From positions 141,977 through 205,976 of the forward strand of contig NZ_JACESE010000007.1 in NCBI RefSeq assembly GCF_013911965.1: 64,000 bases of DNA. Direction: 5' to 3'. This document shows, in pieces, positions 7,353 to 34,863 of this stretch. The stretch is from Phenylobacterium sp. Lineage in GTDB: Bacteria; Pseudomonadota; Alphaproteobacteria; Caulobacterales; Caulobacteraceae. The position numbers were made by a program, and so were the translations under genes. Position 1 is the stretch's first letter, and each line of letters starts with the position of its first letter. Under the pieces are notes generated by a model. It saw only the letters and a list, made by a program, of their open reading frames with translations. It did not search any database and had not been told where the DNA came from.

Positions 7353-8552
7353 TTGCCCGCCGCCGCTTCCACCGACCGCCGCTACGACCTCGACTGGATC
7401 CGGGTCATCGCCTTCGGCCTGCTGATTCTCTATCACGTGGGCATGTTCTACGTGCCCTGGGACTGGCACGTGAAGTCGCCGCAGCCGGTCGAGTGGCTCG
7501 AGCCGGTGATGGTGTTCACCAATCCCTGGCGCCTGACCCTGCTGTTCCTCGTCTCGGGCGCGGCCACCCGATTCATGGCGGACAAGATGAGCGCAGGCGC
7601 GCTCACCCGCTCGCGCGTGGCCCGGCTCCTGCCGCCGCTGGTCTTCGCCATGTTCGTGATCGTGCCGCCGCAGAGCTATTACGAGATCGTCGAGCAGATC
7701 GGCTATGCGGGGACCTTCGCCGACTTCTATCCCAGATATGCGACCTCCAGCGGCCACTGGTGCGACGCCGACGGCTGCCTGATCACGCCCACCTGGAACC
7801 ACATGTGGTTCGTGGCCTATCTGCTGGTCTACAGCCTGGCCCTCGGCGGTCTTCTGGCCCTGGCGCGCGGACGGATCGCGGCCGTGCAGAAGGGGTTGGA
7901 GCAGGCGCTGGCGGGGCCGGGCGTGCTGATCTGGCCGGCCGCCTTCCTGATCCTGCTGCGGCTCACCCTGGCCCCGCTCTTCGAGATCACCCACGCGCTT
8001 GTGGACGACTGGTACAACCACGCGCTCTCGTTCAGCGCCTTCCTGTTCGGCTTCCTGATCGCCAAGTCGGAGCGGCTGAAGGCGGGCTTCGTCGCCTGGC
8101 GCTGGCCGGCCCTGGCCGTGGCGCTCGCCGCCTATGGATGCTGGGCCGGCTACGCCTGGGTCTATCGCGGGGAGGGCGCCGTTCCGCCGGAGGCGCTGCG
8201 GTGGGCGGGCCGCGTCGCCTATGGCCTGGACCAGTGGGCCTTCATCGCCGCGGCCCTGGGGTTCGGCGCCAGGCATCTGAACCGGGGCGGTCCGGCGCTC
8301 CGCTACCTGACGGTCGGGGTCTTCCCCTTCTACATCGTCCACCAGACGGTGATCGTGGTCGCGGGCCATCACCTGGCGAGGGCGGGGCTGCCGCAGGCCC
8401 TGGAGGCGGCCGTCCTGATCGCCGTCACCTTCGCCGCCTGCTTCGCCAGCTACGAGATCGTTCGGCGGCTGGGGCCGCTGCGCCCCCTGTTCGGGCTGAA
8501 GGGGGGCGTGGCGGCGAACGCCGGCGCCTCGACCGCCGCAGCTCGCGCATAA
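7353..8552 (+). CDS. Acyltransferase family 3 membrane protein
   Basis: A 399-residue polytopic membrane protein expected to transfer an acyl group to a sugar, lipid or other acceptor at the inner membrane. The first helix carries the family's R-X10-H motif (R17 and H28 in DWIRVIAFGLLILYHVG). About ten hydrophobic segments follow, with a conserved-looking TWNHMWFVAYLLVYS. The start is TTG at 7353; the nearby ATG at 7339 is out of frame. It is divergent from the LytTR regulator and probably controlled by it. Substrate unknown. Its stop overlaps one copy of the GCAT-N5-ATGC palindrome. Confidence 0.88.
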   Translation: MPAAASTDRRYDLDWIRVIAFGLLILYHVGMFYVPWDWHVKSPQPVEWLEPVMVFTNPWRLTLLFLVSGAATRFMADKMSAGALTRSRVARLLPPLVFAMFVIVPPQSYYEIVEQIGYAGTFADFYPRYATSSGHWCDADGCLITPTWNHMWFVAYLLVYSLALGGLLALARGRIAAVQKGLEQALAGPGVLIWPAAFLILLRLTLAPLFEITHALVDDWYNHALSFSAFLFGFLIAKSERLKAGFVAWRWPALAVALAAYGCWAGYAWVYRGEGAVPPEALRWAGRVAYGLDQWAFIAAALGFGARHLNRGGPALRYLTVGVFPFYIVHQTVIVVAGHHLARAGLPQALEAAVLIAVTFAACFASYEIVRRLGPLRPLFGLKGGVAANAGASTAAARA

Positions 8553-8559
8553 GTCATGC
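8547..8559. promoter_or_regulatory. GCAT-N5-ATGC palindrome upstream of exported peptidase
   Basis: GCAT AAGTC ATGC, a perfect copy of the palindrome repeated in the 22-35 kb peptide locus. It overlaps the acyltransferase stop and ends 81 bp before the start of the HExxH peptidase, nearly the same distance as at the 22096 site. Confidence 0.6.
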
Positions 8560-8640
8560 AGGAGTTGGGCGAAGGCCTCCTCGATCGAAAGGGATTTTCC
8601 GCCCCCAGCAGATAGAGTGGGCTCCGAACGGGAGGGGCCC

Positions 8641-11273: not shown

Positions 11274-11344
11274 TTGAGACCGCAGACAGTCAATTGGCAT
11301 GGCTGGCGCGCGGCCATACCGTCGACCCATCGAGGGAGGCGACC

Positions 11345-12520: not shown

Positions 12521-12883
12521 TCAGGCGGTGACGATCATCCCCCCACGCACCTCGAGCGGCCAGGGCGTGAGCCTGGCGCCCACGCACGGCCCACCGACGC
12601 AGGCGCCGGTTTCGGGGTCGAAGAGGGCGCCGTGCCAGCTGCAGGCGATGAGGTCGCCGGAGGGCGTCAGATACTCGTCGAGCGTCTGGGCCAGCGGCAG
12701 GCCGGCGTGGGGGCAGCGGTCGACATAGCCGCGAACCTCCTCGCCCAGGCGCACGGCGAAGCCGTGGAAATAGGCCTCGCCGATCTGCAGGACGAAGTTG
12801 CGCGCCGCCCCCTCGGCGATCAGGTCGAGGGGGCCGAGCGTCACGCCTGCGGGCGTCTTGTGGATGCGGGCGGGCGCGTTCAC
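12521..12883 (-). CDS. Rieske [2Fe-2S] domain protein, last gene of the tyrosine operon
   Basis: A 120-residue cytoplasmic ferredoxin-like protein. The cluster ligands are visible as CPHAG and, 18 residues later, CSWHG (Cys-X-His and Cys-X2-His). GTG at 12883 overlaps the fahA stop as GTGA, so translation is coupled. Its role in phenylalanine/tyrosine breakdown is not established; it could reduce the phenylalanine hydroxylase or dioxygenase iron, or serve an unrelated oxygenase. No signal peptide. Confidence 0.85.
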   Translation of the reverse strand: MNAPARIHKTPAGVTLGPLDLIAEGAARNFVLQIGEAYFHGFAVRLGEEVRGYVDRCPHAGLPLAQTLDEYLTPSGDLIACSWHGALFDPETGACVGGPCVGARLTPWPLEVRGGMIVTA

Positions 12884-14193
12884 GCCTTCGGGGCCGGCGC
12901 GACCACGCCTGAGCAGGGACCAAAGCCGATGGCGACAAGGCCCTCGGCCACAGCGCGGCCGGCCAGGATCAGCTCGTCGCCGTCCTCCAGGAAGGTTCGC
13001 GTCTCGCCGTTCGGCAGGGTGAGCGGTTCCTTGCCGCCGCGGGTCAGCTCCAGCAGGCTGCCCAGGCCGCTGTCGTCGGGCGTGGAGATGGTGCCCGAGC
13101 CGAAGAGGTCGCCGGGGCGCAGGTCGCAGCCGCCGACCGTGTGGTGGGTCACGAGCTGGGCCATAGTCCAGTAGAGGTTGGTGGCCGGTCCCTTGCCCAG
13201 CCGATGCGCCGGCACTCCGGCCTCGCGCATGGCGCGGGTGCGGATCAGCGCCTCCAGCTCCAGGGCGTAGGCGCCGCTCGCCTGGTCGGCCTCGTCCATC
13301 AGATAGGGCAGGGGCGCCGGATCGCCCTCGGGCCGCTTCGGCTGGGCCGTACGGAACGGGGCCAGCGCTTCGGCGGTGATGATCCAGGGCGAGACCGTGG
13401 TCATGAAGTTCTTGGCCAGGAAGGGGCCGAGAGGCTGGTACTCCCAGGCCTGAAGGTCCCGCGCCGACCAGTCGTTGAGCAGGCAGAGGCCGGCGATGTG
13501 GGCGTCGGCCTCGCCGATGGGGACGGGCTCGCCCAGCGCATTGCCGGGGCCGATCCAAACGCCGAGCTCCAGCTCCAGGTCGAGGCGCCTGGCCGGGCCG
13601 AACACGGGGGCGTCGGCCTCGGGCGCCTTCTGCTGGCCGTTGGGCCTGCGCACGGCTGCGCCAGAGACGCGGACCGAGGAGGCGCGGCCGTGATAGCCGA
13701 TGGGCACGTGCTTGTAGTTGGGCAGCAGCGGATTGTCGGGGCGGAACTGCCGGCCGACGTTCAGGGCGTGATGGATGCCGGCGTAGAAGTCGGTGTAGTC
13801 GCCGATGGCGCAGGGCAGGCGCAACTCGCAGTCGGCGGCGGCGTAGAGCCAGGTCTCCACCTCCGCCCGGTCCGGCGCGCCTTCGGTCAGCAGGTCCGAG
13901 AGCCGGCGGCGCAGGGCCCGGCGCGGTCCGGCGCCCAGGCCGAGCAGGGCGTTCAGCGTCTCGCCCGCGGCGGCCTCGGCCGCGGCCCGGGCCTCTCCGC
14001 TGAGCAGGCCCGAACGGGCGGCCAGAGACAGGTCGAGGATGCGGTCGCCGATGGCGACGCCGCCGCGCGGACGGCCGCCCTTGGGACTGAAGACGCCGAA
14101 CGGCAGGTTCTGGATCGGGAAGTCCGAGCCCTGCGCCGAGGCGACCCAGCTTCGGCGGGACGGATCGTGGGTTTCGTCGATCTGGACGCTCAC
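12880..14193 (-). CDS. fahA: Fumarylacetoacetase
   Basis: The last step of tyrosine breakdown: hydrolyses fumarylacetoacetate to fumarate and acetoacetate in the cytoplasm. 437 residues, normal for the family. The N-terminal domain has [14 protein letters not shown]; the catalytic domain has [29 protein letters not shown] and [20 protein letters not shown] with metal-binding acidic residues, and ends with [12 protein letters not shown]. The GTG start at 14193 overlaps the hmgA stop as GTGA. Part of a six-gene operon running from phhA. Confidence 0.95.
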
Positions 14194-15500
14194 GGGCGGA
14201 CCTCCGCCTTTTCGAAGCCGTCCCAGCAGGCGTCGTAGTCGGCCTGCAGCAGGGGCGTCTCCATGGCGAAGCGGGTCGGGCGGAAGACGAAGCGGCTCTC
14301 GAACATGAAGGCCATGGTGTCTGTGATCTTGTGGGGGGCGAGTTCGGCGGCCGTGGCCTTGGCGTGGCTCTCGCGGTCGGGACCGTGCGCGCTCATGCAG
14401 TTGTGCAGGGAGGCCCCGCCGGGCGCGAAGCCGCCGGCCTTGGCGTCGTACTGGCCATGGATCAGCCCCATGAACTCGCTCATGACGTTGCGGTGGAACC
14501 AGGGCGGCCGGAAGGTGTCCTCCGCCACCATCCAGCGCGGCGGGAAGATGACGAAGTCGCAGTTGGCCGTGCCCGGAACCTCGGACGGCGAGGTCAGGAC
14601 GGTGAAGATGGACGGGTCCGGATGATCGAAGCTGACCGTGCCCATGGTGTTGAACCGGGCCAGGTCGTACTTCACCGGCGCCAGGTTGCCGTGCCAGGCG
14701 ACCACGTCGAGCGGCGAATGGTCGAGCGTGGTCGTCCAGAGGCCGCCCTGGAACTTCTGGACCACCTCGACGGGCGCTTCGCGGTCCTCGTACCAGGCGA
14801 CGGGTGAGAGGAAGTCCCGCGCATTGGCCAGGCCGTTGGCGCCGATGGGGCCGAGCTCCGGCAGGCGGAAGGGCGCGCCGTAGTTCTCGCAGACATAGCC
14901 GCGCGAGGGGCCGGAGAGCTCGACGCGGAAGCGGACGCCGCGGGGGACCAGGGCGATCTCGCCCGGCGACACCTCCAGGCGTCCAAGCTCGGTCGCCAGC
15001 CGGAGCAGCCCTTGCTGCGGCGCGATCAGCAGCTCGCCGTCGGCGTCATAGAAGACGCGGTCCGTCATGGACCGGTCGGCGGCGTAGAGGTGGACCGCGA
15101 TCCCGGCCTGGGCCGCCGGATCGCCCGCGCCGGCATAGGTCACCAGACCGTCCACGAAATCGACGCCCTCGGCGATCTCCGGCGGATCCCACCGCAGCCG
15201 GTTGGGCGAGGGCGGGACCTCGTCGAACGGACCCGACCGCAGGAGGCCGGCGCCTCGGTAGGGGCGATAGGGCGGATGGCCGGCCGAGGGGCGCAGGCGA
15301 TAGAGCCACGAACGGCGGTTCTCGCACCGCGGCGCGGTGAAGGCCGCGCCCGAGAGCTGCTCGGCGTAGAGGCCGAAGGCCGGCCGCTGGGGCGAGTTGC
15401 GGCCTTCGGGCAGGGCGCCGGCGACGGCCTCGGTGGAAAAGCTGTTCCCGAAGCCGCTCTGGTAGGCCAGGGGGGCGTTCGCCCCGCGCGTGGTGCTCAC
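14190..15500 (-). CDS. hmgA: Homogentisate 1,2-dioxygenase
   Basis: Opens the ring of homogentisate with O2 to give maleylacetoacetate, using Fe(II). 436 residues, the usual length. Recognised from [13 protein letters not shown] near the N-terminus, the [16 protein letters not shown] stretch, and the C-terminal iron region [20 protein letters not shown] and [15 protein letters not shown]. The start is GTG at 15500, 8 bases before the hppD stop side. Its product needs a maleylacetoacetate isomerase, which is not in this window. Confidence 0.96.
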
Positions 15501-15508
15501 GTTCGTCT

Positions 15509-16567
15509 CTACGCCTCGACCTTGATGACGCCGCGCCGGATCTGGTCCAGCTCGATGGACTCGAACAGCGCCTGGAAGTTGCCGTTCCCGAAGCCCTCGT
15601 TGCCCTTGCGCTGGATGATCTCGAAGAAGATCGGCCCGAACAGGTTCTCGGTGAAGATCTGCAGGAGGATGCCCTCCTTCTCCACGTCGCCGTCGATCAG
15701 GATGCGGTTCTTCTTCAGCCGCTCCAGGTCCTCGCCATGGCCGGGCACGCGCTTGTCGACCAGCTCGTAATAGGTCTCGATGGTGTCCTGAAGCTTCACG
15801 CCGCGGGCGCGCAGCTTCTCCACCGTCTCGAAGATGTCGTCGGTGGTCAGCGCCAGGTGCTGGATGCCTTCGCCATTGTACTCGCGGATGAACTCCTCGA
15901 TCTGGCTCTTGTCGTCCTGGCTTTCGTTCAGCGGGATGCGGATGGCCTTGTCGGGCGCGATCATCGCCTGGCTGAAGAGGCCGGTCGCCTGGCCCTTGAT
16001 GTCGAAGTACTTCTGCTCCTCGAAACCGAAGATCTGATTGTAGAAGCTCGACCAGGTGCGCATCTGGCCGCGGCGCACATTGTGGGTCAGGTGGTCGAGC
16101 AGGTCGAGGCCGACGCTGTTGACCCGCTCGGCCTCGGCCGCGCCGGGAACGGCCTCCCAGTCGGCGTAGAGGTCGGCCGCGTCGACCAGATAGAGCAGCG
16201 AGCCGCCGATGCCTTCCAGCGCATAGGAACCCTCGCCCAGGACGCCCTGGGAGGCATCGGCCGCCTTGGCGCCGCGCGCGAGCGCGGTCTCATAGGCGCT
16301 CTTCGCATTGGCCACGCGGAAGGCCATGCCGTTGGCTGAGGGGCCGTGGGCGGCGCGGAACTCGGCGACCTGGCCCGCCTGCTCCTGGTTGACCAGCAGG
16401 TTGATGCGGCCCTGCTTGTAGCGGACCACGTCCTTGGTCTTGTGCCTGGAATAGGCGGTGAAGCCCATCTGCTCGATCAGCGCCTTCATGCGCGCCGGAT
16501 CGGGGCTGGTGAATTCGACGAACTCGAAGCCGTCCAGGCCGAGCGGGTTCTCAGGGGTGATGGTCAT
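15509..16567 (-). CDS. hppD: 4-hydroxyphenylpyruvate dioxygenase
   Basis: Converts 4-hydroxyphenylpyruvate to homogentisate using Fe(II) and O2. 352 residues, typical of bacterial enzymes. Two vicinal-oxygen-chelate halves: the first from [14 protein letters not shown], the second with the iron histidine in [15 protein letters not shown] and the C-terminal iron glutamate in [23 protein letters not shown] at 16567; it follows the aminotransferase by 6 bases in the phh-hpp-hmg operon. Confidence 0.96.
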
Positions 16568-16573
16568 GACGGA

Positions 16574-17770
16574 CTACTCCTCTGCGCAGGCGCGGAAGGC
16601 GCGGACGAAGGCGGGGATGTTGGAAGGGGTGAGACCGGCCAGGTTGATGCGGCCGTTGCCGAGCATGTAGACGCCGAAGTCCTGGCGCATCCGGCCGACC
16701 TGGTCGGGCGTGAGCGGCAGGATGGAGAACATGCCCTTCTGCTCGCCGATGGCCGCCAGGCGCGGCTCGGCCTCGGCGAGGGCCTGGCGCACCGAGGCCA
16801 GGCGCCGCCGGCAGGTCTCCAGCTCCGCGCGCCACTCGGCGGACAGCGCCTCGTCCTCCAGGATGATGCGGGCGGCCGCAGCGCCGTGGTCGGGCGGCAT
16901 GGACCAGGCGCATCGGGCGAACTTCAGCACATTGGTGCGCGCCGCTTCCTGGTGACGGCCGGCGCGGACGAAGAGGGCGCCGGTCCGCTCGCGATAGAGG
17001 CCGAAGCTCTTGTCGCAGGAATAGGCGACCATGGCCGTCTCGCAGGCGGCCAGCACGGCGCGCAAGCCTGCGGCGTCGGGTTCGAGCCCGTCGCCCAGCC
17101 CCTGGTAGGCGAGATCGATCAGGGGGACGAGGCCGCGCTCGGCGACCAGGGTCGCGATCTGCCGCCACTGTTCGGCGCTGGGATCGGCGCCCGAGGGGTT
17201 GTGGCAGCAGCCGTGCAGCAGGACGACGTCGCCGGCCTCGGCCCGGCCGAGCGCCGTCATCATCTCTTCGAACATCAGACGCTGCTCGAAGGCGTCGTAC
17301 TGCTCGAAGGTGCGGACGGTCAGGCCGGCCTCGGCGAAGATCTGGCTGTGGATGGGCCAGCTCGGCGTTCCGAGCCAGATGCGTGCGCCGGGGCGGCCCG
17401 CATTGGCCAGCTCCGCGGCCAGGCGCAGAGCGCCGGTGCCGCCGGGCGTCTGCACGCCGAACATGCAGACGGCCGAAAGGCTCTGGCCAAAGGCGATCGG
17501 AGCGATGGCCTCAAGGAAGCCGAAGTCGCCCTCCGGCCCCAGGTAAGACTTGGTCTCCTGCGTCGCCAGCAGCCGCGCCTCGGCGGCCTTCATGGCGGCG
17601 AAGACGGGGGTGCGGCCGGCCGCGTCCCTGTATACGCCGACGCCGAGGTCGATCTTGCCTTCGCGCGGGTCCTCGGCGAAGGCGCGGATCAGCGACAGCA
17701 CAACGTCCGGCGGTTGCGGCGTCAGGCCTTCGAAGAGGGCGTCGGAACGGGCCGCGACAGCGGTGGTCAT
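16574..17770 (-). CDS. Aromatic amino-acid aminotransferase (class I PLP enzyme)
   Basis: A 398-residue PLP enzyme of the aspartate/tyrosine aminotransferase type, here expected to convert tyrosine to 4-hydroxyphenylpyruvate. It shows IDLGVGVYRDAAGRTPVF at the N-terminus, LLHGCCHNPSGADPS, DLAYQGLGDGLE and the PLP lysine in AYSCDKSFGLYRERTGAL, all tyrB/aspC-like. ATG at 17770 overlaps the phhA stop (ATGA), so it is translationally coupled between phhA and hppD. A longer frame to 18541 runs antisense to nothing useful and overlaps phhA, so it was rejected. Confidence 0.92.
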   Translation of the reverse strand: MTTAVAARSDALFEGLTPQPPDVVLSLIRAFAEDPREGKIDLGVGVYRDAAGRTPVFAAMKAAEARLLATQETKSYLGPEGDFGFLEAIAPIAFGQSLSAVCMFGVQTPGGTGALRLAAELANAGRPGARIWLGTPSWPIHSQIFAEAGLTVRTFEQYDAFEQRLMFEEMMTALGRAEAGDVVLLHGCCHNPSGADPSAEQWRQIATLVAERGLVPLIDLAYQGLGDGLEPDAAGLRAVLAACETAMVAYSCDKSFGLYRERTGALFVRAGRHQEAARTNVLKFARCAWSMPPDHGAAAARIILEDEALSAEWRAELETCRRRLASVRQALAEAEPRLAAIGEQKGMFSILPLTPDQVGRMRQDFGVYMLGNGRINLAGLTPSNIPAFVRAFRACAEE

Positions 17771-18750: not shown

Positions 18751-19212
18751 ATGGTCGCCATGGACGAGATCGACCGCAAGCTGGTGCGCGCCCTGCAGGA
18801 GGACGCGACTCTCAGCCACGCGGCCCTGGCCGAGCGGGTCGGCGCCTCGCCCACCTCCTGCTGGCGACGGATCAAGGCGCTGGAGGAGGCCGGTGTGCTG
18901 ATGAAGCCCGTGCGGCTGGTCGATCCGCAGGCCGTGGCCCGGGGCGTCAGCGTCATGCTGCAGATCCGCGCCAAGTCGCACGACCCGGAGGCCCGGCGCG
19001 AGCTGGAGACCTATCTGCGCGGCCGGCCGGAGATCATGGAGTGCTACTCCATGTCCGGCGAGTGGGACTATCTGATGCGCATCGTCGTCGCCGATGTGGC
19101 CGGCTACGAGCGGTTCCTGATGCGCGAGCTGCTGAACCACCCGAATGTGGCGACCTCGGCCTCGCACTTCGCCATGAGCCAGGTGAAGTACACCACGGCC
19201 CTGCCGGTCTGA
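18751..19212 (+). CDS. Lrp/AsnC family regulator of the phenylalanine/tyrosine operon
   Basis: A 153-residue regulator with an N-terminal HTH (DEIDRKLVRALQEDATLSHA ... GASPTSCWRRIKALEEAG) and a C-terminal RAM ligand-binding domain (VMECYSMSGEWDYLMRIV-like pattern). It is divergent from phhA, which together with the dyad at 18713 suggests it senses an aromatic amino acid and controls the operon, as comparable Lrp-type regulators of phh/hmg genes do. ATG at 18751 follows GAGGGG at a good distance; ATG at 18760 is possible. Confidence 0.93.
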   Translation: MVAMDEIDRKLVRALQEDATLSHAALAERVGASPTSCWRRIKALEEAGVLMKPVRLVDPQAVARGVSVMLQIRAKSHDPEARRELETYLRGRPEIMECYSMSGEWDYLMRIVVADVAGYERFLMRELLNHPNVATSASHFAMSQVKYTTALPV

Positions 19213-20755: not shown

Positions 20756-22014
20756 CACGCCGGCGGCGCCTTGGGCAGGGCGGCGAACAGCCGGTCGAGG
20801 TCGTTCATGTCGTTGAAGACGGACAGCGAGACGCGGAACCGATTGCGCGAGACGGTGATCCGCACGTCCTTCTCGCGCAGGAGCGGGCCGAGCTTGCCGT
20901 AGGCGTCCTTCAGCGCGAAGGCGACGAGCGGCGTTGGGCTTCCCATCGGCGTCAGCGGTTCGTAGCCGCGGCCGCGCAGCTCGGTCTGCACGGCGTCCGC
21001 CAGGGGCTGCCGCCAGGCCTGGATGCGGGCGACGTCGAGCTGGCGGATCCAGGGCAGGGTGGTGGCGAGCTGCACCACGCCCGTCCACGAGGTCGTGCCC
21101 ATGGCGAAGTAGCCCTCCGCCGTCTCCGAAGCGGCGTAGTCGGCCACCGTCTCGCCGGGCGGATCGTAGGGCAGGACGTGGGAGGTGAAGCGCGAGACCT
21201 GATGATAGCCCCACCACGGCCGCGCGATTTCGGAGAGCACCTCCTTGCGCGCATAGAGGAAGCCCAGGCCGAAGTCGCCCATCAGCCACTTGTAGGAAGA
21301 GGTCGCCGCGAAATCGACGCCCGCCGCCCGCAGGTCCAGCGGCACAGTCCCGGCGGCGTGGGCCAGGTCGACATAGACGTAGGCCCCGTGGGCGTGAGCC
21401 AGGTCGCAGACCGCCTTGAGGTCGTGCTGAAAGCCGTTGACCGTGGAGACGGCGCTGATCGCCACCAGCTTCGTCTTGCCGTCGATGGCCGCGGCCATGG
21501 CGTCCATGTCGGTCTTGCCCTCAGGCGTCATGGGTAGGGTGACGACGTCCATGCCGGCTTCGCCGAGGCGGCCATAGGTGTAGTAGGAGCCGAAGAAGTG
21601 CAGGGCGTCGGTGACGATCCGACCGCCCGAGGCCGGGATGCCGAGCGCCTGCAGGACCAGGTTCTCGCCCATGGTCGTGGACTGGATGACGGCGATCTCG
21701 TCGGCCGTCCCGCCCACCAGGGCGGCGAAGTTCTCCACCATGGTCTTTTGGAGTTCGCCCATGTCGAGGTCGGGCGCACCCTTCGCCCGGGTCTTGTAGG
21801 CGAGGTAGTCGGAAAGCGCCGCCTTCGCCGCCAATGGCATCGGATGCGTGGCGCCGGAATCCAGATAGACGAAGGGCATCTCGGCGAAGGCCGACCTGGC
21901 GGGAAGCTCCGTCGGCAGGGGCGGCGGCGACGCCGTCTCGGCGCGGGCGGCGCCGGCGCCCAGGGCCGGCGTGGCGGCCGCAGCGGCGACCAGGGCGCGT
22001 CGGGTGAAGTCCAT
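20755..22014 (-). CDS. Tat-exported class V PLP enzyme (isopenicillin N epimerase/PvdN-like)
   Basis: A 419-residue PLP enzyme with an export signal MDFTRRALVAAAAATPALGAGAARAE carrying a twin-arginine pattern, so it probably folds with PLP in the cytoplasm and acts in the periplasm. The class V fold is seen in FVYLDSGATHPMP, QSTTMGENLVL, VYVDLAHAAGTVPLDL and the PLP lysine SSYKWLMGDFG. A known Tat-exported relative is PvdN, which alters a side chain of a periplasmic peptide siderophore. ATG at 22014 is preceded by AGGAGG. It is coupled to a downstream S10 peptidase and has a GCAT-N5-ATGC site 81 bp upstream. Reaction unknown. Confidence 0.85.
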   Translation of the reverse strand: MDFTRRALVAAAAATPALGAGAARAETASPPPLPTELPARSAFAEMPFVYLDSGATHPMPLAAKAALSDYLAYKTRAKGAPDLDMGELQKTMVENFAALVGGTADEIAVIQSTTMGENLVLQALGIPASGGRIVTDALHFFGSYYTYGRLGEAGMDVVTLPMTPEGKTDMDAMAAAIDGKTKLVAISAVSTVNGFQHDLKAVCDLAHAHGAYVYVDLAHAAGTVPLDLRAAGVDFAATSSYKWLMGDFGLGFLYARKEVLSEIARPWWGYHQVSRFTSHVLPYDPPGETVADYAASETAEGYFAMGTTSWTGVVQLATTLPWIRQLDVARIQAWRQPLADAVQTELRGRGYEPLTPMGSPTPLVAFALKDAYGKLGPLLREKDVRITVSRNRFRVSLSVFNDMNDLDRLFAALPKAPPA

Positions 22015-22095
22015 CACACCTCCTCGGACGGCGGCAGCTTAGCCGCCGGCCACGGGATTATCCTTGCGGAGTGGATCGCGCGGCGTCCGCAGCCG

Positions 22096-22108
22096 GCATT
22101 GTTTATGC
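22096..22108. promoter_or_regulatory. GCAT-N5-ATGC palindrome upstream of Tat PLP enzyme/S10 operon
   Basis: GCAT TGTTT ATGC lies between the end of the Lrp gene and the start of the class V PLP enzyme, about 80 bp from the start codon. The gap suggests this operon has its own Lrp-type promoter control. Confidence 0.65.
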
Positions 22109-22152
22109 GCCAGCCCGGAAGGCGCCGCGGCGTATGATCTGGCGATCGGCGT

Positions 22153-22635
22153 CTATCGGAATTGACGCGCCCGCAGCGGTACGGCCGTCGTGCTCTTGGA
22201 CTCGGCCAGGGTCACGATCGAGCGCACGTCGACAACACCGGGCAGCTTCAGCAGCACCGCGAAGATGAAGTCCTGATACCAGGAGACGTCCGGGGCCATG
22301 ATCTTCAGCATGGCGTCCATCTCGCCGAACACGGTCCAGCATTCCAGGATCTCCGGGATGTTGTGGATCGCCTTGTAGAAGTTTTCCCGCTCCTCCTCGG
22401 TCAGGGTCGTCATCTTCACCTGGGCGAAGATCTGCATGGTGAAGCCGAGCTTCTGGTGGTCGACGATGGCCACCACGGCCTTGATGTACCCTTCCTCGCG
22501 CAGGCGCTGGATGCGCCGCCAGCAGGGCGATTGCGACAGGCCGACGCGCTCGGCGAGCTCGGCGGTCGACAGCGAAGCGTCGCGCTGCATCAGGTCGAGG
22601 ATCTTGATGTCGATCGCGTCGAGAGTGAACGGCAT
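22153..22635 (-). CDS. Lrp/AsnC family regulator, proposed master of the peptide locus
   Basis: A 160-residue regulator: HTH at about residues 5-50 (DAIDIKILDLMQRDASLSTA ... GLSQSPCWRRIQRLREEGYI), then a RAM domain with IPEILECWTVFGEMDAMLKI. It is divergent from a PLP enzyme (22796), with two perfect and one near-perfect GCAT-N5-ATGC palindromes between them; the near-perfect copy (GCAT ACCTT ATGT) overlaps its own start, suggesting autoregulation. The same palindrome precedes the S10, TonB receptor and HExxH peptidase genes. The ligand is probably an amino acid, as for the family. Confidence 0.92.
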   Translation of the reverse strand: MPFTLDAIDIKILDLMQRDASLSTAELAERVGLSQSPCWRRIQRLREEGYIKAVVAIVDHQKLGFTMQIFAQVKMTTLTEEERENFYKAIHNIPEILECWTVFGEMDAMLKIMAPDVSWYQDFIFAVLLKLPGVVDVRSIVTLAESKSTTAVPLRARQFR

Positions 22636-22675
22636 ACCTTATGTGCCTCCCAGCTTAGAGATGCATAGCGAATGC
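22632..22675. promoter_or_regulatory. Phased pair of Lrp-type palindromes (one perfect, one near-perfect)
   Basis: GCAT AGCGA ATGC (22663-22675) is perfect; GCAT ACCTT ATGT (22632-22644), 31 bp away, differs at one base and overlaps the Lrp start codon. The spacing matches the 32 bp between the two sites at 34819 and 34851. Confidence 0.65.
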
Positions 22676-22730
22676 GCGCCCCGCCGGTGTCAAGCACCAC
22701 AAAGACAAGAAAAACCCTGAGCCCGGATTA

Positions 22731-22743
22731 GCATCGCCTATGC
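22731..22743. promoter_or_regulatory. GCAT-N5-ATGC palindrome upstream of PLP enzyme
   Basis: GCAT CGCCT ATGC, extended by one more pair (A22730/T22744), 52 bp before the start of the class I/II PLP enzyme and 68 bp from the 22663 site. Confidence 0.65.
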
Positions 22744-22795: not shown

Positions 22796-23965
22796 GTGAC
22801 ATTTTCCAGCGCGGCGCAGGGCCGCGAAGCATCCCCCCGTCCGGCCGACAGCTATCCTCGCTGGGTGCGCTCGGTGCTGGCGCGGGTCGCCGCCGAGCCC
22901 AAGGCGGCCCTTCTCTTCGACTCCACCATTCGCGAGCCCACCGAGCTCCTGGCGCAGGTCGTCCGCAAGGCCTTCGCCGGTCCGGTGACGGACCGGTACG
23001 AGAGCGTCTTCTCGGCCGGCAACCGCTATGTCGCCCGCGCGGTCGCGTCGCGCCACGGCGTGTCGCCGGGCCAGGTCATCGCCGCCACCGGCGCGACCTC
23101 GGCCATGGCCATGGCCATCCGCGCCTTCGTGCGGCCAGGCGACCACGTGGTGGTCGAGACGCCATGCTTCGACCTGCTGCCGCAACTGGCGCAGGACGCC
23201 GGGGCGCGAATTTCCTATGTCAGCCGCCGTCCGCCCGCCTTCGGGGTCGACCCTGGCGAGCTGGCCGCGGCCATCGGCCCGGACACCCGGCTGATCATCC
23301 TGACCCAGTTGCACAACCCCTCGGGCGCCGCGCTCGACGAGGGCGCTCTGGAGGCGCTGGCGCGCGTGGCCCGCCAGGCGCGCACGCCGATCCTGGTGGA
23401 CGAGGTCTATGCCGACTTCATCGGCGGCGGGGCGAGCGCCCTGCGTGTGGCGCCGGAATTCATCGTCGCCGGCAGCCTGACCAAGGTCCAGGGGCTGTTC
23501 GCCCTGCGCTGCGGCTGGCTCGTGGCCGCGCCGGAGCATGTCGCGCGCATCGAGGCGGCCAATCCGCAGGGCGATCTGGGGGTCTCCAAGCTGGCCCATG
23601 CCGTCGCCGCCCTGGTGCTGGAGGCGCCCGAGCCGTTCGAAGCCCACTGGCGCGGCGTGCTGGCCGAGACGCGCCCCGTCATGGCGCGCCACGCCCAGGC
23701 GATGATCGACGACGGCCTGCTGGCCGGCGATCTCCCGCCCTATGGCTGCATGTACTTTCCGCAGGTGGTCGGCGTCTCCGACACCCGGTCACTGGCTGAA
23801 GAGCTTTGGTCCAAGCACGGACTGGTGGTCGCCCCGGGCGAATACTTCGGCCTTCCGGGCCACATCCGCGTCGGCTTCGGGGGCGACGCCGGGGAACTCG
23901 ATGCCGGCCTTGCCCGGTTGCACGCCGCCCTGGCTTCGCGGCGGCCGCGTTCGGCGCATAGCTGA
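22796..23965 (+). CDS. Class I/II PLP-dependent aminotransferase
   Basis: A 389-residue fold-type I PLP enzyme, probably cytoplasmic (no signal). Visible: ATGATSAMAMAIRAFVRPGD (PLP phosphate region), LTQLHNPSGA, PILVDEVYADF, and the PLP lysine in GSLTKVQGLFALRCGW. It resembles histidinol-phosphate/aromatic-type aminotransferases but the substrate is not readable. The start is GTG at 22796 after GGGGGA; no better start is in frame. Divergent from the Lrp gene with shared palindromes, the classic layout for an Lrp-type regulator and its local amino-acid target gene. Confidence 0.88.
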   Translation: MTFSSAAQGREASPRPADSYPRWVRSVLARVAAEPKAALLFDSTIREPTELLAQVVRKAFAGPVTDRYESVFSAGNRYVARAVASRHGVSPGQVIAATGATSAMAMAIRAFVRPGDHVVVETPCFDLLPQLAQDAGARISYVSRRPPAFGVDPGELAAAIGPDTRLIILTQLHNPSGAALDEGALEALARVARQARTPILVDEVYADFIGGGASALRVAPEFIVAGSLTKVQGLFALRCGWLVAAPEHVARIEAANPQGDLGVSKLAHAVAALVLEAPEPFEAHWRGVLAETRPVMARHAQAMIDDGLLAGDLPPYGCMYFPQVVGVSDTRSLAEELWSKHGLVVAPGEYFGLPGHIRVGFGGDAGELDAGLARLHAALASRRPRSAHS

Positions 23966-23968
23966 TGC
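23956..23968. promoter_or_regulatory. GCAT-N5-ATGC palindrome upstream of large TonB receptor
   Basis: GCAT AGCTG ATGC overlaps the stop of the PLP enzyme, 169 bp before the receptor start. A weak partial copy (GCAT GACCA ATCT, 23987-23999) lies 31 bp further on, the same phasing as elsewhere. The rest of the 24000-24137 leader shows no other clear element. Confidence 0.6.
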
Positions 23969-24137
23969 GTCTGCATCACGACCATTGCATGACCAATCTG
24001 TGTCGGGCAGGCCAAGGGCGTGACTACGCAAAGAAATGCCGGTCGGACATGACTAGCCTTTCAGGCAAGCCAAGCCCGCGGAGTCGGGCGGCTATTGGGG
24101 TTTTGGGCAGTCATCGACAGAGCAGTTGGGGGATCAG

Positions 24138-27098
24138 ATGGTTGGAAGTTCAGTGAAGGGGCGCCTGTTCGCCTCCAGCGTGATTGGCGGGGCGGCCCTG
24201 ATGGCGACCTTCGCCGCGGCTCCGGCCAGCGCCCAGACGCCGGCGGCGGCCGAGCCGCAGGTGGTGGACGAGATCGTCGTCACCGGTTCGCGCATCCGGC
24301 GCGCCGAGACGACCACCGAGGCTCCGGTGACGGTCATCGACGCCCAGTCGATTTCCGAGCGCGGCTTCGTCTCCCCGGGTCAGGCGCTGAACGAAATGAC
24401 CGCGGTCGTCCCGTCCTATCCGCAGGCTGACGGTTCGGGGGCGAGCTCGGGCAGCGGTCAGCAGTTCCCCAACCTCTTCGGCCTCGGCCCGGGCCGGACG
24501 CTGACCCTGGTGAACGGCCGCCGCTTCGTGACGTCCTCGCAAGGGCTGGGCGACCGGGTGGTGGACACCAACATCATCCCGACCGGCCTGATCGAGCGGA
24601 TCGACGTGGTGCAGGCCGGCGGCGCCGCCGTCTACGGCTCCGACGCCATCGCCGGCGTGATCAACTACGTCCTGAAGGACAACTTCGAGGGGCTGGAACT
24701 CGACGCCTACTACGGCATCTCCTCGCGTGAGGACTATCCGCAGGGCAGCCTGCGCGTCACCGGCGGCAAGAACTTCCTGGACGACCGCGCCAACGTCGCG
24801 GTGAACCTGGAGTGGTCGAAGACCGACTCCCTGCTGAACTACGATCGCCCGATCTCCAACCTGGGCCGCCTGACGGCGACCAATCCGGCGAACACGGGGC
24901 CGAACGACGGCATCCCGGCGGTGACCGAGGTGTTCAACGCCCGCTTCTGGGAGTTCAACTACAACGGCCTGCTGTTCACGCCCGCGCCGGCGCCCCGTCC
25001 GGATTTCATCTTCAGCCGGGCCGGCGTGCCGCAGCAGTTCAGCGCCGATGGCCAGTCGCTGATCCCCTACGACATCGGGACGCGGTTTGGCGTGCCCTTC
25101 GCGTCCGGCGGAGAGGGCTGGGACTATCGCGAGATCTCCTCGTTGCGCACGGGCGTCGAGCGCTGGAGCGGCAATGTCATCGGGCATGTCGACCTGACCG
25201 ACCGCATCCGCCTCTTCGGCGAGGCCATGTACGCCGAGGTCGAGGGGCGAAATCCGTACGGGACCTACTTCAGCACCACGATCTTGAACGGCGCGGCCAC
25301 CGGCTTCGGCGCCATCCCGATCAGCCGCACCAACCCCTACCTCTCCGACTCGGTCCGTGCGGCGCTCGGCCCGGGCGGTCCGCCGCTGTACCTTTCCAAG
25401 GTCTGGGGCGATGACCTGCTGCCGACGCGGGAAGTCCTCACCAACACCGAGACCTATCGCGTCCTGGCCGGCGTCGAGGGCGACTTCGACATCGGCGAAC
25501 GCAACTTCTACTGGAGCGTCTCGGCCAGCCGCGGCCAGACCGAGGGCAAGGAAGAAGGCTGGGGCGTCATCACGGCCAACTTCAACAAGGCGGTCAACGC
25601 CGTGCGCGACAGCGCCGGCAACATCGTCTGCGCGGTCAACGCCGACGCCGATCCGACCAACAACGACGCCGCCTGCGCGCCGCTGAACCCGTTCGGGGTG
25701 GGCAACGCCAGCTTCGAAGCGCGCAACTACGTGACCACGCCGATCGGCGAAGAGTTCCTGAACACCCAGGATGACTATCTCGCCACCCTGGGCGGCGAAC
25801 TGTTCGACCTGCCGGCCGGCCCGGCCCAGTTCAGCGTGGCCTTCGAGCGCCGCGAAGAGTCGGCCAAGTTCACGCCGTCGGAAGCCGAGCAGCGCGGCCT
25901 CACGGGTTCGGGTGTGGCCACGGTCGCCCAGTCGGCCAGCTACAACACCAACGAATGGTCGGCCGAGGTGCTGGTGCCCGTCCTCGGCGGCGACTTCAGC
26001 CTGCCGTTCGCGCAGTCGGTCGAACTGAACGGCGCCTATCGCTGGGTCGATCACTCCATCGCCGGCGAAGAGACCGTCTGGGGCGCGGGCCTGAAGTGGG
26101 AGGTCGTCGACGGCCTGACCTTCCGCGCCTCGAAGAGCCGCAACTTCCGTGCGCCGACGCTCGAGCAGCTGTTCGCACCCACCCGCGTGGCCCTGGGCTC
26201 CGTCGGCCAGGATCCCTGCGACTTCCGCTATATCAACGCCGGCCCGGCGCCTTCGGTGCGGCAGGCCAACTGCCAGGCCGAATGGACGGCGAACGGCTAT
26301 GGCGACCTGACGCAGCACCAGAACGACTCGACCAACTTCTCTTCGGCCAACGTCACCACCGGCGGCAACCGGGACCTGCAGAACGAGGTCTCCGACACGG
26401 TCACCTACGGCGTCGTCTTCCAGCCGAGCTTCGTTCCGGGCCTGACGATCGTCATCGACCGGGTCGAGGTGGATCTGACCGACGGTCTCTCGGCCTTCGC
26501 GCCGGAGAACTTCATGGCGACCTGCTATGACTCCACGGTTCGTCCGGACGAGATCTGCGCCACCTTCACCCGCAATGCGCAAGGCGATGTGATCTCGGCC
26601 CTGAACACCACCTTCAACGCCGGCCAGATCACCTATCGGGGTGAGGTCTACAACATCAACTACGCCTTCCCGCTGGGCCAGTTCTTCGGCGATCGCGACC
26701 TGGGCTCGATCGAGCTCAACGCCGAGGCCACCCACACGGCCAAGCTCGAGACCTCCGTCACGGGCTTCGACCTGACGCGGACCGACAATACGGTGGCGAT
26801 CCCGGACTGGAGCGGCCGCTTCGACGCCCGCTACCGCCGCGGTCCGCTGCGGGCGACCTACACGCTGAACTACCTCTCCGAGGTGCTCAGCGCCCAGGGC
26901 GACACCATCGAACAGCGCGAGCACTGGCTGATCGACGCCAACATCCGCCACAGCCTGTCGGCCTCCTACGACTTCGGGACCTACGTGCTGCGCGGCGGGG
27001 TGAACAACTTCACCGACGAGGAGCCGTCCTACCCGACCCGCACCCACGGCGACATCATCGGTCGCTACTACTTCATGGGTGTGACCGCGCGGTTCTAA
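24138..27098 (+). CDS. Large TonB-dependent receptor, first gene of the peptide-uptake cluster
   Basis: A 986-residue outer-membrane receptor. Signal peptide up to AAAPASAQT, TonB box VVDEIVVTGSRIRR, plug domain (RTLTLVNGRRFVTSS, IERIDVVQAGGAAVYGSDAIAGVINYVL) and a large barrel ending RYYFMGVTARF. The SRIRR-type plug and near-1000-residue length are typical of the expanded receptor set of Caulobacterales, sphingomonads and xanthomonads. ATG at 24138 has GGGGGAT upstream; TTG at 24126 is less likely. A terminator-like hairpin separates it from the downstream cyclodeaminase genes. A peptide ligand is inferred from the neighbours. Confidence 0.94.
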   Translation: MVGSSVKGRLFASSVIGGAALMATFAAAPASAQTPAAAEPQVVDEIVVTGSRIRRAETTTEAPVTVIDAQSISERGFVSPGQALNEMTAVVPSYPQADGSGASSGSGQQFPNLFGLGPGRTLTLVNGRRFVTSSQGLGDRVVDTNIIPTGLIERIDVVQAGGAAVYGSDAIAGVINYVLKDNFEGLELDAYYGISSREDYPQGSLRVTGGKNFLDDRANVAVNLEWSKTDSLLNYDRPISNLGRLTATNPANTGPNDGIPAVTEVFNARFWEFNYNGLLFTPAPAPRPDFIFSRAGVPQQFSADGQSLIPYDIGTRFGVPFASGGEGWDYREISSLRTGVERWSGNVIGHVDLTDRIRLFGEAMYAEVEGRNPYGTYFSTTILNGAATGFGAIPISRTNPYLSDSVRAALGPGGPPLYLSKVWGDDLLPTREVLTNTETYRVLAGVEGDFDIGERNFYWSVSASRGQTEGKEEGWGVITANFNKAVNAVRDSAGNIVCAVNADADPTNNDAACAPLNPFGVGNASFEARNYVTTPIGEEFLNTQDDYLATLGGELFDLPAGPAQFSVAFERREESAKFTPSEAEQRGLTGSGVATVAQSASYNTNEWSAEVLVPVLGGDFSLPFAQSVELNGAYRWVDHSIAGEETVWGAGLKWEVVDGLTFRASKSRNFRAPTLEQLFAPTRVALGSVGQDPCDFRYINAGPAPSVRQANCQAEWTANGYGDLTQHQNDSTNFSSANVTTGGNRDLQNEVSDTVTYGVVFQPSFVPGLTIVIDRVEVDLTDGLSAFAPENFMATCYDSTVRPDEICATFTRNAQGDVISALNTTFNAGQITYRGEVYNINYAFPLGQFFGDRDLGSIELNAEATHTAKLETSVTGFDLTRTDNTVAIPDWSGRFDARYRRGPLRATYTLNYLSEVLSAQGDTIEQREHWLIDANIRHSLSASYDFGTYVLRGGVNNFTDEEPSYPTRTHGDIIGRYYFMGVTARF

Positions 27099-27186: not shown

Positions 27187-27200
27187 GAGAGGGGGCCTCG

Positions 27201-31749: not shown

Positions 31750-31762
31750 AGGGACCTGCATC

Positions 31763-33235: not shown

Positions 33236-33240
33236 GACGG

Positions 33241-33257
33241 GCCGGCCTCAGGCCGGC
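33241..33257. terminator. Short hairpin between convergent S10 genes
   Basis: GCCGGCC (33241-33247) and GGCCGGC (33251-33257) form a perfect 7-bp stem whose loop is the stop codon of the minus-strand S10 gene. No T-tract on either side; it may give weak two-way termination. Confidence 0.35.
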
Positions 33258-34729
33258 TTGCCGCCGGTCACGAAGACGCGGATGTCGCCGTTGAAGGCCT
33301 TCAGCGTCCGCTCGTCGGTATAGGCCATGTGGCCGCCGACATATTCGCGCTGGATCACCCGGTCGCGGGGATAGTCGCTGCGGGCGACCATGTAGCGGGC
33401 CGGTCCCACCGTGGTGGTCAGGTCGTAGACGCCGGTTCCGATCATGAGCCGGAAGTCCGGATTGGCCGCGAACGCCTTGGAGATCTCGGCCGGATAGTCG
33501 AAGTCGAGGAACGGTCCGCCGGGGCCGAGCGTGCCGTTCCATTCCCAGTCGCCGGTCTCCGGGGCCGAGGGGCGATACTCGGCCGCCGACCAGGGGACGT
33601 TCAGGAACCGGGCGTAGTGCTCCAGCATCATCGGCTGGATGGCCTGCATGGGCTTGGCCGAAGGATCTGGGATCCGCTCTCCGTCCGCCGGGACGGGCCC
33701 CACATAGCGGGCGTCGTATGTCCCCAGCCGCAAGCCCTTGTCCTTCAGGAGCTCGCGGGCGAAGGCGATCTTGGTGATGGCGAGATCGTTGGCCAGGTAG
33801 TAGTCGGCGCCGACGCCGGTCAGAGCTTGCAGCCGGGCCGCGATCTGCGCCCGTTCGGCCTGCGGCAGGTCGTAGCCGCGCACCAGGGCCATCAGATAGG
33901 GGCCCATGCCCCAGGTCCAGGCCTCGTCGATGATCTCGCCCACCGGCCGGTCGCTGCGTTCGGCCCGGCCGTGATAGGCGGCGATGGCGGCGAGCGCGGT
34001 GAGGTTGGTGGCGTAGGCCAGGGCGTTCTTCGCCCGCTGGCTGGTCTCGATCATGTTGACCGCCTGGCCGAACAGGAAGACGCCGTCGAGCGGCGCAGTC
34101 TCGGCCAGCAGGCCCGCCATCATCGCCGCCCGGATGGTGCCGTAGCTCTCGCCCAGCACGTATTTCGGCGAGGCCTCGCGGCCGTTGGCCCTGCTCCAGG
34201 CGAGGACGAAATCCGACACCGCTCGCGCGTCGCCATTGACGGAATAGACATCTTCCCGGCTGCCGCCGGCCAGGACGCGGGAGAAGCCCGTCTCGGGCGG
34301 GTCGATCATGACGATGTCCGCCACGTCCAGAACGCACTCGGCGTTGTCCACCGTCTGCGGCGGGGGTTCGGGCGCGTCGAGGTCTTGAGCTACCAGGATC
34401 CGCTTCGGTCCGAGCGCGACCATGTGCAGGGTGGCCGAGGAACTGCTGGGCCCGCCGTTGAAGGCGAACAGGACCGGGCGACGGGCCTTGTCCACGCCCT
34501 CGCGGACATAGGAGGTGGTGACGAAACGCACCGCCGGCGCACCGGCCGGGTTCGTCACTACGGTCTCGGCCACCGTGGCGACGTAGCGCACGCGCTCGCC
34601 GTTGAAGACGCCCTGATGACGCGTCACGAAGGGCGGTGCGGCCGGCTGGGCCATGACCCTTCCCGCCGCCGCCAGGCCTGCGGCCGCCGTGGCCGCGGTG
34701 AGCACTTGCCGCTTGGTGATCAACGCCAT
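33248..34729 (-). CDS. S10 serine carboxypeptidase-like (paralogue 3), altered oxyanion motif
   Basis: A 493-residue exported S10 protein. Signal MALITKRQVLTAATAAAGLAAAGRVMAQ (a KR rather than RR pair). Nucleophile GESYGT (S195), an Asp in GTGVYDLTTTVG and a His in YVGGHMAYTD are present. The oxyanion-hole stretch is NGGPSSSS (91-98) where the paralogues have NGGPG, so activity or specificity may differ. ATG at 34729. It is divergent from paralogue 4, with two GCAT-N5-ATGC sites between them. Confidence 0.9.
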   Translation of the reverse strand: MALITKRQVLTAATAAAGLAAAGRVMAQPAAPPFVTRHQGVFNGERVRYVATVAETVVTNPAGAPAVRFVTTSYVREGVDKARRPVLFAFNGGPSSSSATLHMVALGPKRILVAQDLDAPEPPPQTVDNAECVLDVADIVMIDPPETGFSRVLAGGSREDVYSVNGDARAVSDFVLAWSRANGREASPKYVLGESYGTIRAAMMAGLLAETAPLDGVFLFGQAVNMIETSQRAKNALAYATNLTALAAIAAYHGRAERSDRPVGEIIDEAWTWGMGPYLMALVRGYDLPQAERAQIAARLQALTGVGADYYLANDLAITKIAFARELLKDKGLRLGTYDARYVGPVPADGERIPDPSAKPMQAIQPMMLEHYARFLNVPWSAAEYRPSAPETGDWEWNGTLGPGGPFLDFDYPAEISKAFAANPDFRLMIGTGVYDLTTTVGPARYMVARSDYPRDRVIQREYVGGHMAYTDERTLKAFNGDIRVFVTGGKPA

Positions 34730-34818
34730 ATCCGCCCCCAATTCTGTCCGTCTGCGCCAGATTAGCGGCGGCGGCCCGGCATTTCTTTTCGAACAGCCGC
34801 GTCGCATCGGCGGGGCTC

Positions 34819-34863
34819 GCATAGCCTATGCCGGACCCTCGCGCAGTCGTGCATCAGCCATGC
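34819..34863. promoter_or_regulatory. Two phased GCAT-N5-ATGC palindromes between divergent S10 genes
   Basis: GCAT AGCCT ATGC (34819-34831) and GCAT CAGCC ATGC (34851-34863) start 32 bp apart, about three helical turns, in the 236-base divergent promoter. The first is 89 bp from the minus-strand start, the second 102 bp from the plus-strand start, so one regulator could control both directions. Confidence 0.7.

Follow-up and report, generated by a model that had tools for sequence, protein, structure and literature searches.

A palindromic operator candidate and a predicted local Lrp-type regulon in Phenylobacterium

A stretch of 64,000 nucleotides from Phenylobacterium sp. (the window) carries seven perfect copies of the palindrome GCAT-N5-ATGC near genes for peptidases, PLP enzymes, a TonB-dependent receptor and an Lrp/AsnC-type regulator. 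This raises the question of whether the copies are operators, which protein would read them, and whether the regulon is scattered over the genome, as a first-pass annotation had proposed, or confined to the island of genes around lrp.

Abundance of the palindrome in the window and in the genome

All seven copies lie exactly where the first-pass annotation had placed them, there is no eighth in the window, and their placement is also as it described: the copies at 8547 and 23956 overlap the ends of the preceding genes (ORF 7353-8552 and 22796-23965, respectively), and the other five (22096, 22663, 22731, 34819 and 34851) sit between genes. Dinucleotide-shuffled versions of the window contain 1.02 +/- 0.95 copies, about twice the earlier estimate of 0.5 expected copies; none of 100 shuffles reached seven. 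Half-sites separated by gaps from N0 to N15 other than N5 occur in 0-3 copies apiece. From the site density elsewhere in the genome, 0.24 copies are expected in the 26.3-kb stretch that holds the cluster (Poisson P 6e-9, uncorrected for the roughly 147 stretches of this length that the genome contains). Across 33 genomes, the 1.03 Mb around lrp contains 112 exact sites where the remainder of these genomes predicts 8.5 (13-fold), and 64 versus 8.4 when counted more than 250 bp away from any lrp start. GCAT-N5-ATGC ranks first of 1280 dyads scanned, both in the 33 lrp loci (112 observed, 9.4 expected) and in the first 50 kb of the window.

The whole genome has 41 such sites in 3.86 Mb, which is the background level; of the 34 outside the seven, 26 are intragenic and 8 intergenic according to a simple gene caller. 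Genomes with and without lrp are alike in overall site density (P 0.21), and where an lrp-bearing genome has a second, unlinked copy of the receptor or OCD gene, the 1.5-2 kb upstream of it contain an exact site in 0/5 cases. The comparison of genome-wide frequency with expectation, which had been put forward as a check, thus gave equality and speaks against a genome-wide regulon. We rejected that proposal, since there is no excess of sites and, among the 150 of 7359 first-look candidates scored, no promoter-model match with E<0.005 outside the island. A local cluster far beyond chance in a genome that is not enriched indicates a local regulon rather than a scattered one.

The lrp gene and its promoter

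The protein encoded by lrp consists of an AsnC-type winged helix-turn-helix (PF13404, HTH_AsnC-type, 67.0 bits, cut-off 27) and an Lrp/AsnC ligand-binding domain (PF01037, AsnC_trans_reg, 60.7 bits, cut-off 25). Of 101 Phenylobacterium genomes, 33 have an ortholog, with 39 lrp copies in total, and the S10d gene is co-inherited with it (31/33 genomes with lrp versus 0/68 without). The window holds further regulator genes, namely a second Lrp-like gene (18751-19209) and LysR-like ORFs.

The operator is exact at the same position of the lrp promoter in 32 of the 33 genomes and has one mismatch in the remaining one; counted by gene, it is exact in 38/39 copies, with one mismatch in the last, and is present in all six tandem second copies. 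Among 20 promoters of lrp paralogs (at most 48% identity), none has the exact palindrome within 200 bp. Genome G102 has kept lrp (69% identity) and its operator, with none of the region's other 23 proteins found in the 30 kb around lrp. Conservation in orthologous promoters, another check that had been suggested, therefore came out clearly for the link to Lrp, and the choice of this gene as candidate regulator is upheld insofar as comparison ties a symmetric site to it. The view that the spacers share no sequence fails within one promoter class, since the lrp copies mostly have CCGCT (28 of 39) or CCGTT (7). A second operator lies at +31 with at most one mismatch in 23/39 copies; in the window it is also the -71 operator of the divergent aminotransferase gene. 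The box 12 bp before the first operator reads TTGACA in 30 copies, TTGACT in 7 and otherwise in 2.

Layout of the target promoters

Five island promoters (those of the aminotransferase, the aminotransferase_5/S10 operon, the TonB receptor and the two divergent S10 genes) share one layout, in which an A-rich box is preceded by operators at 71-72 and 40 bp and followed, after 11-12 bp, by TANNNT. The sites at 22096, 22663, 23956, 34819 and 34851 fit this layout. The box has the consensus A-S-W-W-CG-N-AARGAWAATCCG, occurs in every type of target promoter and is rare elsewhere in the genomes searched; that of the receptor is one of five genome matches to CGMAWRGRWWWNCCG.

The 31 bp between paired operators (31-32 bp over all pairs) correspond to three helical turns; short (semi-)palindromic operators clustered at whole-turn spacing, as seen here in the 13-bp dyad and its partner sites, are a trait of the Lrp/AsnC family (PMC2995911). 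In 6/8 site groups the top-ranking offset for a partner is +/-31 bp (two of the six being both ends of one pair; the S10c|S10d and AT5tat groups have another top offset), and the mean score for this partner is reached by 0/300 column-permuted controls. With a score cut of 8 bits, the A-rich box was found in 131/204 promoters examined, including only 10/22 of AHc and 5/43 of M61. Among these 131, operator matches of at least 6/8 lie at -71/72 in 110 and at -40/41 in 90 (1.1% at control offsets), and TANNNT follows 11-12 bp after the box in 118. When exact sites 20-99 bp before a box are considered, 81/83 are at 39-41 or 70-72 bp. Each of the two receptor operator positions has a match of at least 6/8 in 29/29 box-bearing receptor promoters.

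Table 1. Positions of regulatory elements and genes in the window.
Feature	Position	Strand	Remarks
Palindrome before M61-like peptidase gene	8547..8559	.	Not conserved; membership unproven
Aminotransferase class V-like protein (target)	20758..22017	-	Pfam; twin-arginine-like leader by eye
A-rich box CGCAAGGATAATCCC, aminotransferase_5 promoter	22054..22068	-	TAAGCT at 22036-22041
Operator, aminotransferase_5 gene	22096..22108	.	40 bp before A-rich box
lrp (proposed reader of operators)	22153..22635	-	160-aa Lrp/AsnC-type regulator
Second lrp operator GCATACCTTATGT	22632..22644	.	1 mismatch; over lrp start codon; 31 bp from first
First lrp operator	22663..22675	.	Also -40 operator of divergent aminotransferase gene
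TTGACA, candidate -35 of lrp	22688..22693	-	12 bp before lrp operator
A-rich box, aminotransferase promoter	22703..22717	+	TAGCAT after it at 22729-22734
Extra palindrome over presumed -10 of aminotransferase gene	22731..22743	.	Not conserved
Class I/II aminotransferase-like PLP enzyme (target)	22796..23965	+	Pfam Aminotran_1_2
Operator, TonB receptor gene	23956..23968	.	71 bp before A-rich box
Degenerate partner operator GCATGACCAATCT, TonB receptor	23987..23999	.	2 mismatches; 31 bp on from 23956 operator
A-rich box CGCAAAGAAATGCCG, TonB receptor promoter	24027..24041	+	TAGCCT at 24054-24059
986-aa TonB-dependent receptor (target)	24138..27098	+	Pfam Plug and barrel
Left S10 serine carboxypeptidase-like gene (target; start inferred)	33248..34729	-	Pfam Peptidase_S10
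A-rich box, left S10 gene	34777..34791	-	TAATCT at 34759-34764
Operator common to two divergent S10 genes	34819..34831	.	-40 left gene, -72 right gene
Operator common to two divergent S10 genes	34851..34863	.	-72 left gene, -40 right gene
A-rich box, right S10 gene	34891..34905	+	TAGGAT at 34917-34922
Right S10 serine carboxypeptidase-like gene (target)	34918..36441	+	Pfam Peptidase_S10

Promoter-model searches and individual targets

A promoter model (R1) trained without the genome of the window (G000) and searched on it, with 150 of 7359 first-look candidates scored, gave five matches with E<0.005, all in the island. In the window, the model matches 22631-22725 for the aminotransferase (E 9.8e-12), 22036-22128 on the minus strand for aminotransferase_5 (E 5e-11), 23955-24060 for the receptor (E 2.4e-8), and 34761-34864 on the minus strand (E 7.6e-13) and 34818-34904 on the plus strand (E 2.7e-10) for the divergent S10 genes. 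The best match outside the island (G000:C2:7094, E 0.011) lies within a 308-aa ORF; with a box-only model the same stretch scores best in G000 (E 0.042) and the island boxes reach only E 0.16-0.93. Six genomes with lrp have, among the matches listed, all 29 with E<1e-4 inside the island, and the best value in eight genomes without lrp is 0.0056. Partner genomes in this search and in that with the box-only model supplied some of the training promoters, and G000 is therefore the only out-of-sample test. In the eight genomes searched with the box-only model, all 10 matches with E<0.02 are in islands (G022, G029 and G068).

The target list of the first-pass annotation stands for the aminotransferase_5/S10 operon, in which an S10 peptidase gene (19220-20770) comes after the aminotransferase, and for Lrp, the class I/II aminotransferase, the receptor and the divergent S10 genes; membership of the HExxH peptidase behind the 8547 site is unproven. 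That site lies 39 bp before a box-like CGAAAGGGATTTTCC (2.4 bits, under the cut), is given 9.9 bits by the promoter model (window E 0.049) and is absent among the 63 genome-wide promoter-model matches up to E 10. An exact copy at the place of the 22731 site, 28 bp after the box start, occurs in G000 only. The left S10 gene matches Peptidase_S10 with 25.1 bits (cut-off 21.9), and the right one more likely starts at the in-frame ATG at 34966, after its presumed -10. For the product of 22796-23965, guanitoxin/capreomycidine-type enzymes are the best NCBIfam matches, and we rejected this assignment as far under the cut-off (158 versus 415 bits).

Proposed mechanism and alternative explanations

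We consider it highly probable that the Lrp/AsnC-type protein from 22153-22635 recognizes GCAT-N5-ATGC as its operator, within a local, putatively autoregulated module for peptide use. A common tag at fixed distances in the promoters of a regulator and its neighbors implies that the regulator most likely controls both itself and them. Lrp dimers would bind pairs of sites 31-32 bp apart, one of them often degenerate. Because the pair in the lrp promoter spans the stretch behind TTGACA and the lrp start codon, binding should lower lrp expression; the same pair would serve the divergent aminotransferase gene, from 71 and 40 bp before its A-rich box. Provided that TANNNT is the -10, operator centers would fall near -104 and -73 and the A-rich box in the place of the -35, which fits activation from upstream; whether a target would be activated or repressed is judged here from operator position. 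Regulator and promoters may form one inherited module for uptake and breakdown of peptides or an unusual amino acid. Lrp binding, target activation, autorepression and the kind of substrate are what we infer from the observed sites, distances, conservation and co-inheritance. Somewhat speculatively, the island could even have its own promoter code, in which a wrapped multimer of Lrp, or an island-borne partner, would replace the usual -35 contact via the A-rich box in a portable, self-contained transcription module; we regard this as possible but rather unlikely.

A different DNA-binding protein might read the palindrome, given the further regulator genes in the window and the fact that Lrp is a reader predicted from sequence. 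However, the site accompanies lrp in nearly every genome and in all tandem second copies, persists in G102 where the island is absent, and is missing from the paralog promoters; its 13-bp symmetry and three-turn phasing also suit Lrp proteins (PMC2995911, PMC10201364). We consider another reader quite unlikely. It is very unlikely, too, that the 13-mer before lrp serves chiefly as a core promoter element, with GCTATGC acting as a -10-like box behind TTGACA and its symmetry incidental. TTGACA/T does lie exactly 12 bp before it in 37/39 copies, and its spacer is mostly CCGCT, but both half-sites are conserved, the left one included, and the dyad recurs with other spacers in six further promoter classes at other distances to TANNNT. 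Moreover, the gap from TTGACA to TATGC would be 20 bp, which is longer than sigma-70-type promoters usually allow. Finally, the background-level genome counts and the lack of conservation of two of the seven sites (8547 and 22731) could suggest that a short palindrome clustered by chance in this GC-rich genome; the shuffling result, the 13-fold enrichment over 33 genomes and the conserved, fixed positions and distances contradict this and make it extremely improbable.

Comparison with known Lrp systems

The Lrp family includes members with 13-bp sites and with sites spaced by two or three helical turns (PMC2995911, PMC10201364). As described in PMC2995911, archaeal FL11 has a 13-bp palindromic site, and FL11 and Ss-LrpB resemble the island in clusters of imperfect sites, center distances of two or three turns and autoregulation (predicted here). 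The site sequence differs, however, and the island promoters belong to a bacterium and have, in addition, an A-rich box whose distance is constant; the island system is a prediction from sequence. For BarR and E. coli Lrp, PMC10201364 reports three-turn spacing among others and control of neighboring amino-acid genes, as in the island, whereas the island is a single local promoter set with 31-bp pairs and the operator GCAT-N5-ATGC. The E. coli global Lrp (NF008370; PDB 2gqq) is homologous over its full length and has the same two domains, but the island protein scores 117 bits against this global Lrp equivalog (below the cut-off of 233), and its site set is local.

We found no publication on such a regulon in Phenylobacterium in the open-licence PubMed Central literature. 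The proposed regulon is a clean new example of an already familiar type of gene control; for Lrp-type regulation in Caulobacteraceae it provides a predicted operator, a predicted reader and a distance rule (31 and 40 bp). One signal shared by S10 peptidase, amidohydrolase, cyclodeaminase-like and aminotransferase genes may aid in finding the substrate.

Related islands outside the genus

Islands of similar gene content in Brevundimonas and Sphingomonadales encode an Lrp with 53-65% identity. In 15 of their 16 loci the region before lrp has no exact operator, the sole exception being L142 (at -136); both Brevundimonas loci have a one-mismatch site at -41. The recognition-helix region of these proteins is nearly identical despite the missing operator. 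A scan of these islands for an equivalent dyad gave nothing convincing, and promoter-model matches are weak, the best (4.7e-4) being in Brevundimonas L133. Strong promoter-model matches occur in Caulobacter segnis FS L115 (2.1e-13, 1.6e-9 and 2.4e-4).

Local enrichment of the dyad

All seven exact GCAT-N5-ATGC sites reported by the first-pass annotation are present at their positions in the window, while shuffles of the window contain 1.02 +/- 0.95 such sites and none of 100 reaches seven. The whole genome (3.86 Mb, 33 contigs) holds 41 sites, fewer than the ~60 predicted by the shuffle rate of the window, and 26 of the 34 found elsewhere are intragenic when genes are called by a simple script. 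Site density does not differ between the 33 genomes of the genus that carry an ortholog of lrp (lrp+) and the 68 that do not (lrp-), at 8.79 versus 8.63 per Mb (P 0.21). Since density is equal in both sets and the genome total lies below the shuffle rate, the excess is local, and the proposal of a regulon scattered over the genome is not supported. Going by the remainder of those genomes, the 33 lrp loci (1.03 Mb) should contain 8.5 exact sites, but 112 are observed; when 250 bp around the lrp starts are removed, 8.4 are expected and 64 observed. An unbiased scan of 256 half-sites with gaps of 3-7 bases places this dyad first by Poisson value, both in the 33 loci (112 versus 9.43 expected) and in the first 50 kb of the window alone (7 versus 0.37). 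As the 33 loci are mutually related, these values are not independent trials.

Features of the window discussed in the text
Feature	Position	Remark
Exact site	8547	M61-like peptidase gene behind it; poor A-box
Exact site	22096	in modelled promoter
Exact site	22663	in modelled promoter
Exact site	22731	over the presumed -10 of AT12
Exact site	23956	in modelled promoter
Exact site	34819	in modelled promoter
Exact site	34851	in modelled promoter
Operator pair	22632/22663	31 bp apart
Operator pair	23956/23987	31 bp apart; partner with two mismatches
Operator pair	34819/34851	32 bp apart
A-rich box	22054-22068	-35 place
A-rich box	22703-22717	-35 place
A-rich box	24027-24041	-35 place
A-rich box	34777-34791	-35 place
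A-rich box	34891-34905	-35 place
lrp	22153-22635 (-)	160 aa
AT5tat	20758-22017	aminotransferase_5
AT12	22796-23965	class I/II aminotransferase
Receptor	24138-27098	TonB receptor
S10c	33248-34729	S10 peptidase, divergent from S10d
S10d	34918-36441	S10 peptidase
Second Lrp-like gene	18751-19212	37% to lrp
Genes adjoining it	12880-18648	

Association of the dyad with lrp

The lrp product contains both Lrp/AsnC domains; its orthologs (E<=1e-55) occur in 33 of 101 genus genomes at identities of at least 69%, and the next relatives beyond this set reach at most 48%. Comparison of related genomes strongly supports a tie between the site and the lrp promoter: in 32 of 33 lrp+ genomes 27-29 bp separate an exact copy from the start codon, and in the remaining one (G073) the copy at this place differs by a single base, with an exact copy at -118. 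Exact operators precede 38 of 39 lrp copies in total, including the second copy in all six genomes with two; the promoters of 20 paralogs (genus, 15; order, 5) lack one within 200 bp. TTGACA or TTGACT stands 12 bp ahead of the site in 37 of 39 copies. A second site, exactly 31 bp on and over the start codon, has at most one mismatch in 23 of 39 copies and is degenerate in 16. The duplicated copies (genomes G005, G093, G076, G089, G106 and G105; loci L053/L054, L084/L085, L089/L090, L091, L092/L093 and L094/L095) lie on the same strand 4-6 kb apart, each with an operator of its own, and in five of the six second copies the start codon falls within a perfect second operator.

In most lrp+ contigs lrp is surrounded by Pfam-assigned aminotransferases, a TonB receptor, cyclodeaminase-like (OCD) genes, amidohydrolases, an APC permease, and M61-like and S10 peptidase genes. 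S10d orthologs (E<=1e-110) occur in 31 of 33 lrp+ versus 0 of 68 lrp- genomes, and the receptor (E<=1e-180) in 31 of 33 (identity at least 53%) versus 4 of 68 (at most 51%); OCD2 is spread more widely (59 of 101). Among named records, loci of this kind were found in Phenylobacterium and one Caulobacter segnis strain. G102 retains lrp (69% identity) and the operator with none of the other 23 region proteins at E<=1e-25 in the 30 kb around lrp, which argues for the site as a part of lrp and not of some other gene of the island.

Several observations count against control by Lrp through this operator. Brevundimonas and sphingomonad loci share many of these genes and an lrp of 53-65% identity with a nearly identical helix-turn-helix, but the operator is missing at the corresponding place and no alternative dyad is clearly prominent in the dyad scan. 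In lrp+ genomes none of the 5 unlinked extra copies of receptor and OCD genes has an exact site upstream, compared with 1 of 7 lrp- controls (1.9 kb upstream). Loci L132 and L133 (Brevundimonas), L134 and L142 have many of the island genes in changed order, with the operator different or unseen.

Architecture of target promoters

Target promoters contain an A-rich box near CGAAAAGAAAATCCG, which is absent from the lrp promoter itself. A weight matrix blind to operators passed 8 bits in 131 of 204 upstream regions from seven gene classes (AT12 28/29, receptor 29/32, AT5tat 22/27, S10c 20/25, S10d 17/26, AHc 10/22, M61 5/43); five further regions were excluded because their match started too deep within the gene. 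Among exact operators 20-99 bp before the box, 81 of 83 sit either 39-41 bp or 70-72 bp away from it; those between two divergent genes were counted for both. Matches of at least 6/8 occur at -71/72 in 110 of 131 regions and at -40/41 in 90, against 1.1% at control offsets, and TANNNT follows the box by 11-12 bp in 118. If TANNNT is the -10 element, the centres of the operators fall near -104 and -73 and that of the box near -32. Such operator positions fit activation from upstream, the mode proposed for these promoters.

When the dyad was scored at each offset from exact sites (maximum 8), offsets +31 and -31 stood out (4.01 and 3.59; background 1.99, sd 0.50), and none of 300 column-permuted control sets reached the observed maximum. 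The 31-bp partner is the top offset in six of eight site groups, two of the six being both ends of one pair, and is not the top offset in S10c/S10d, AT5tat or background sites.

A model of 36 such promoters, all from other genomes, matched S10c (4.6e-11), AT12 (5.9e-10), AT5tat (2.6e-9), the receptor (1.5e-6) and S10d (1.3e-3) in the genome of the window, with nothing further under 0.01 among the 150 scored of 7359 first-look candidates; these E-values are rough. The same five lead the ranking when the window is scanned in full. Every one of the 29 listed matches with E<1e-4 in six lrp+ genomes falls inside the island, the best match in eight lrp- genomes has E 0.0056, and Caulobacter segnis FS has three promoters of island type.

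Five of the seven sites proposed as regulon sites lie in modelled promoters. The site at 22731 overlies the presumed -10 of AT12 and occurs there only in the genome of the window. The site at 8547 lies 39 bp ahead of a poor A-box, with TAGAGT 12 bp further on; it scores 9.9 bits in the window scan and is not among 63 genome-wide matches. Each of these two may be a genuine site of recent origin or a product of chance.

Proposed regulation

From the sites, their distances and their inheritance we infer a scheme of repression and activation in which Lrp dimers would occupy two sites three turns apart. Bound to the site that follows TTGACA and to the one that covers the start codon, Lrp would repress its own gene; from upstream, it would activate promoters with the A-box in the -35 place, and a putative ligand from peptide breakdown could set the balance. 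In the divergent lrp/aminotransferase region one operator pair would serve for repression and activation alike. S10c and S10d, which are also divergent, have one symmetric pair in common, at -72 and -40 for each.

No exact dyad precedes the second Lrp-like gene within the window, which adjoins genes for phenylalanine hydroxylase and HPPD-, homogentisate- and FAH-like proteins (the last three named by eye). Among NCBIfam families AT12 matches GntC and VioD best, though far under cut-off; both are PLP enzymes that form arginine-derived rings.
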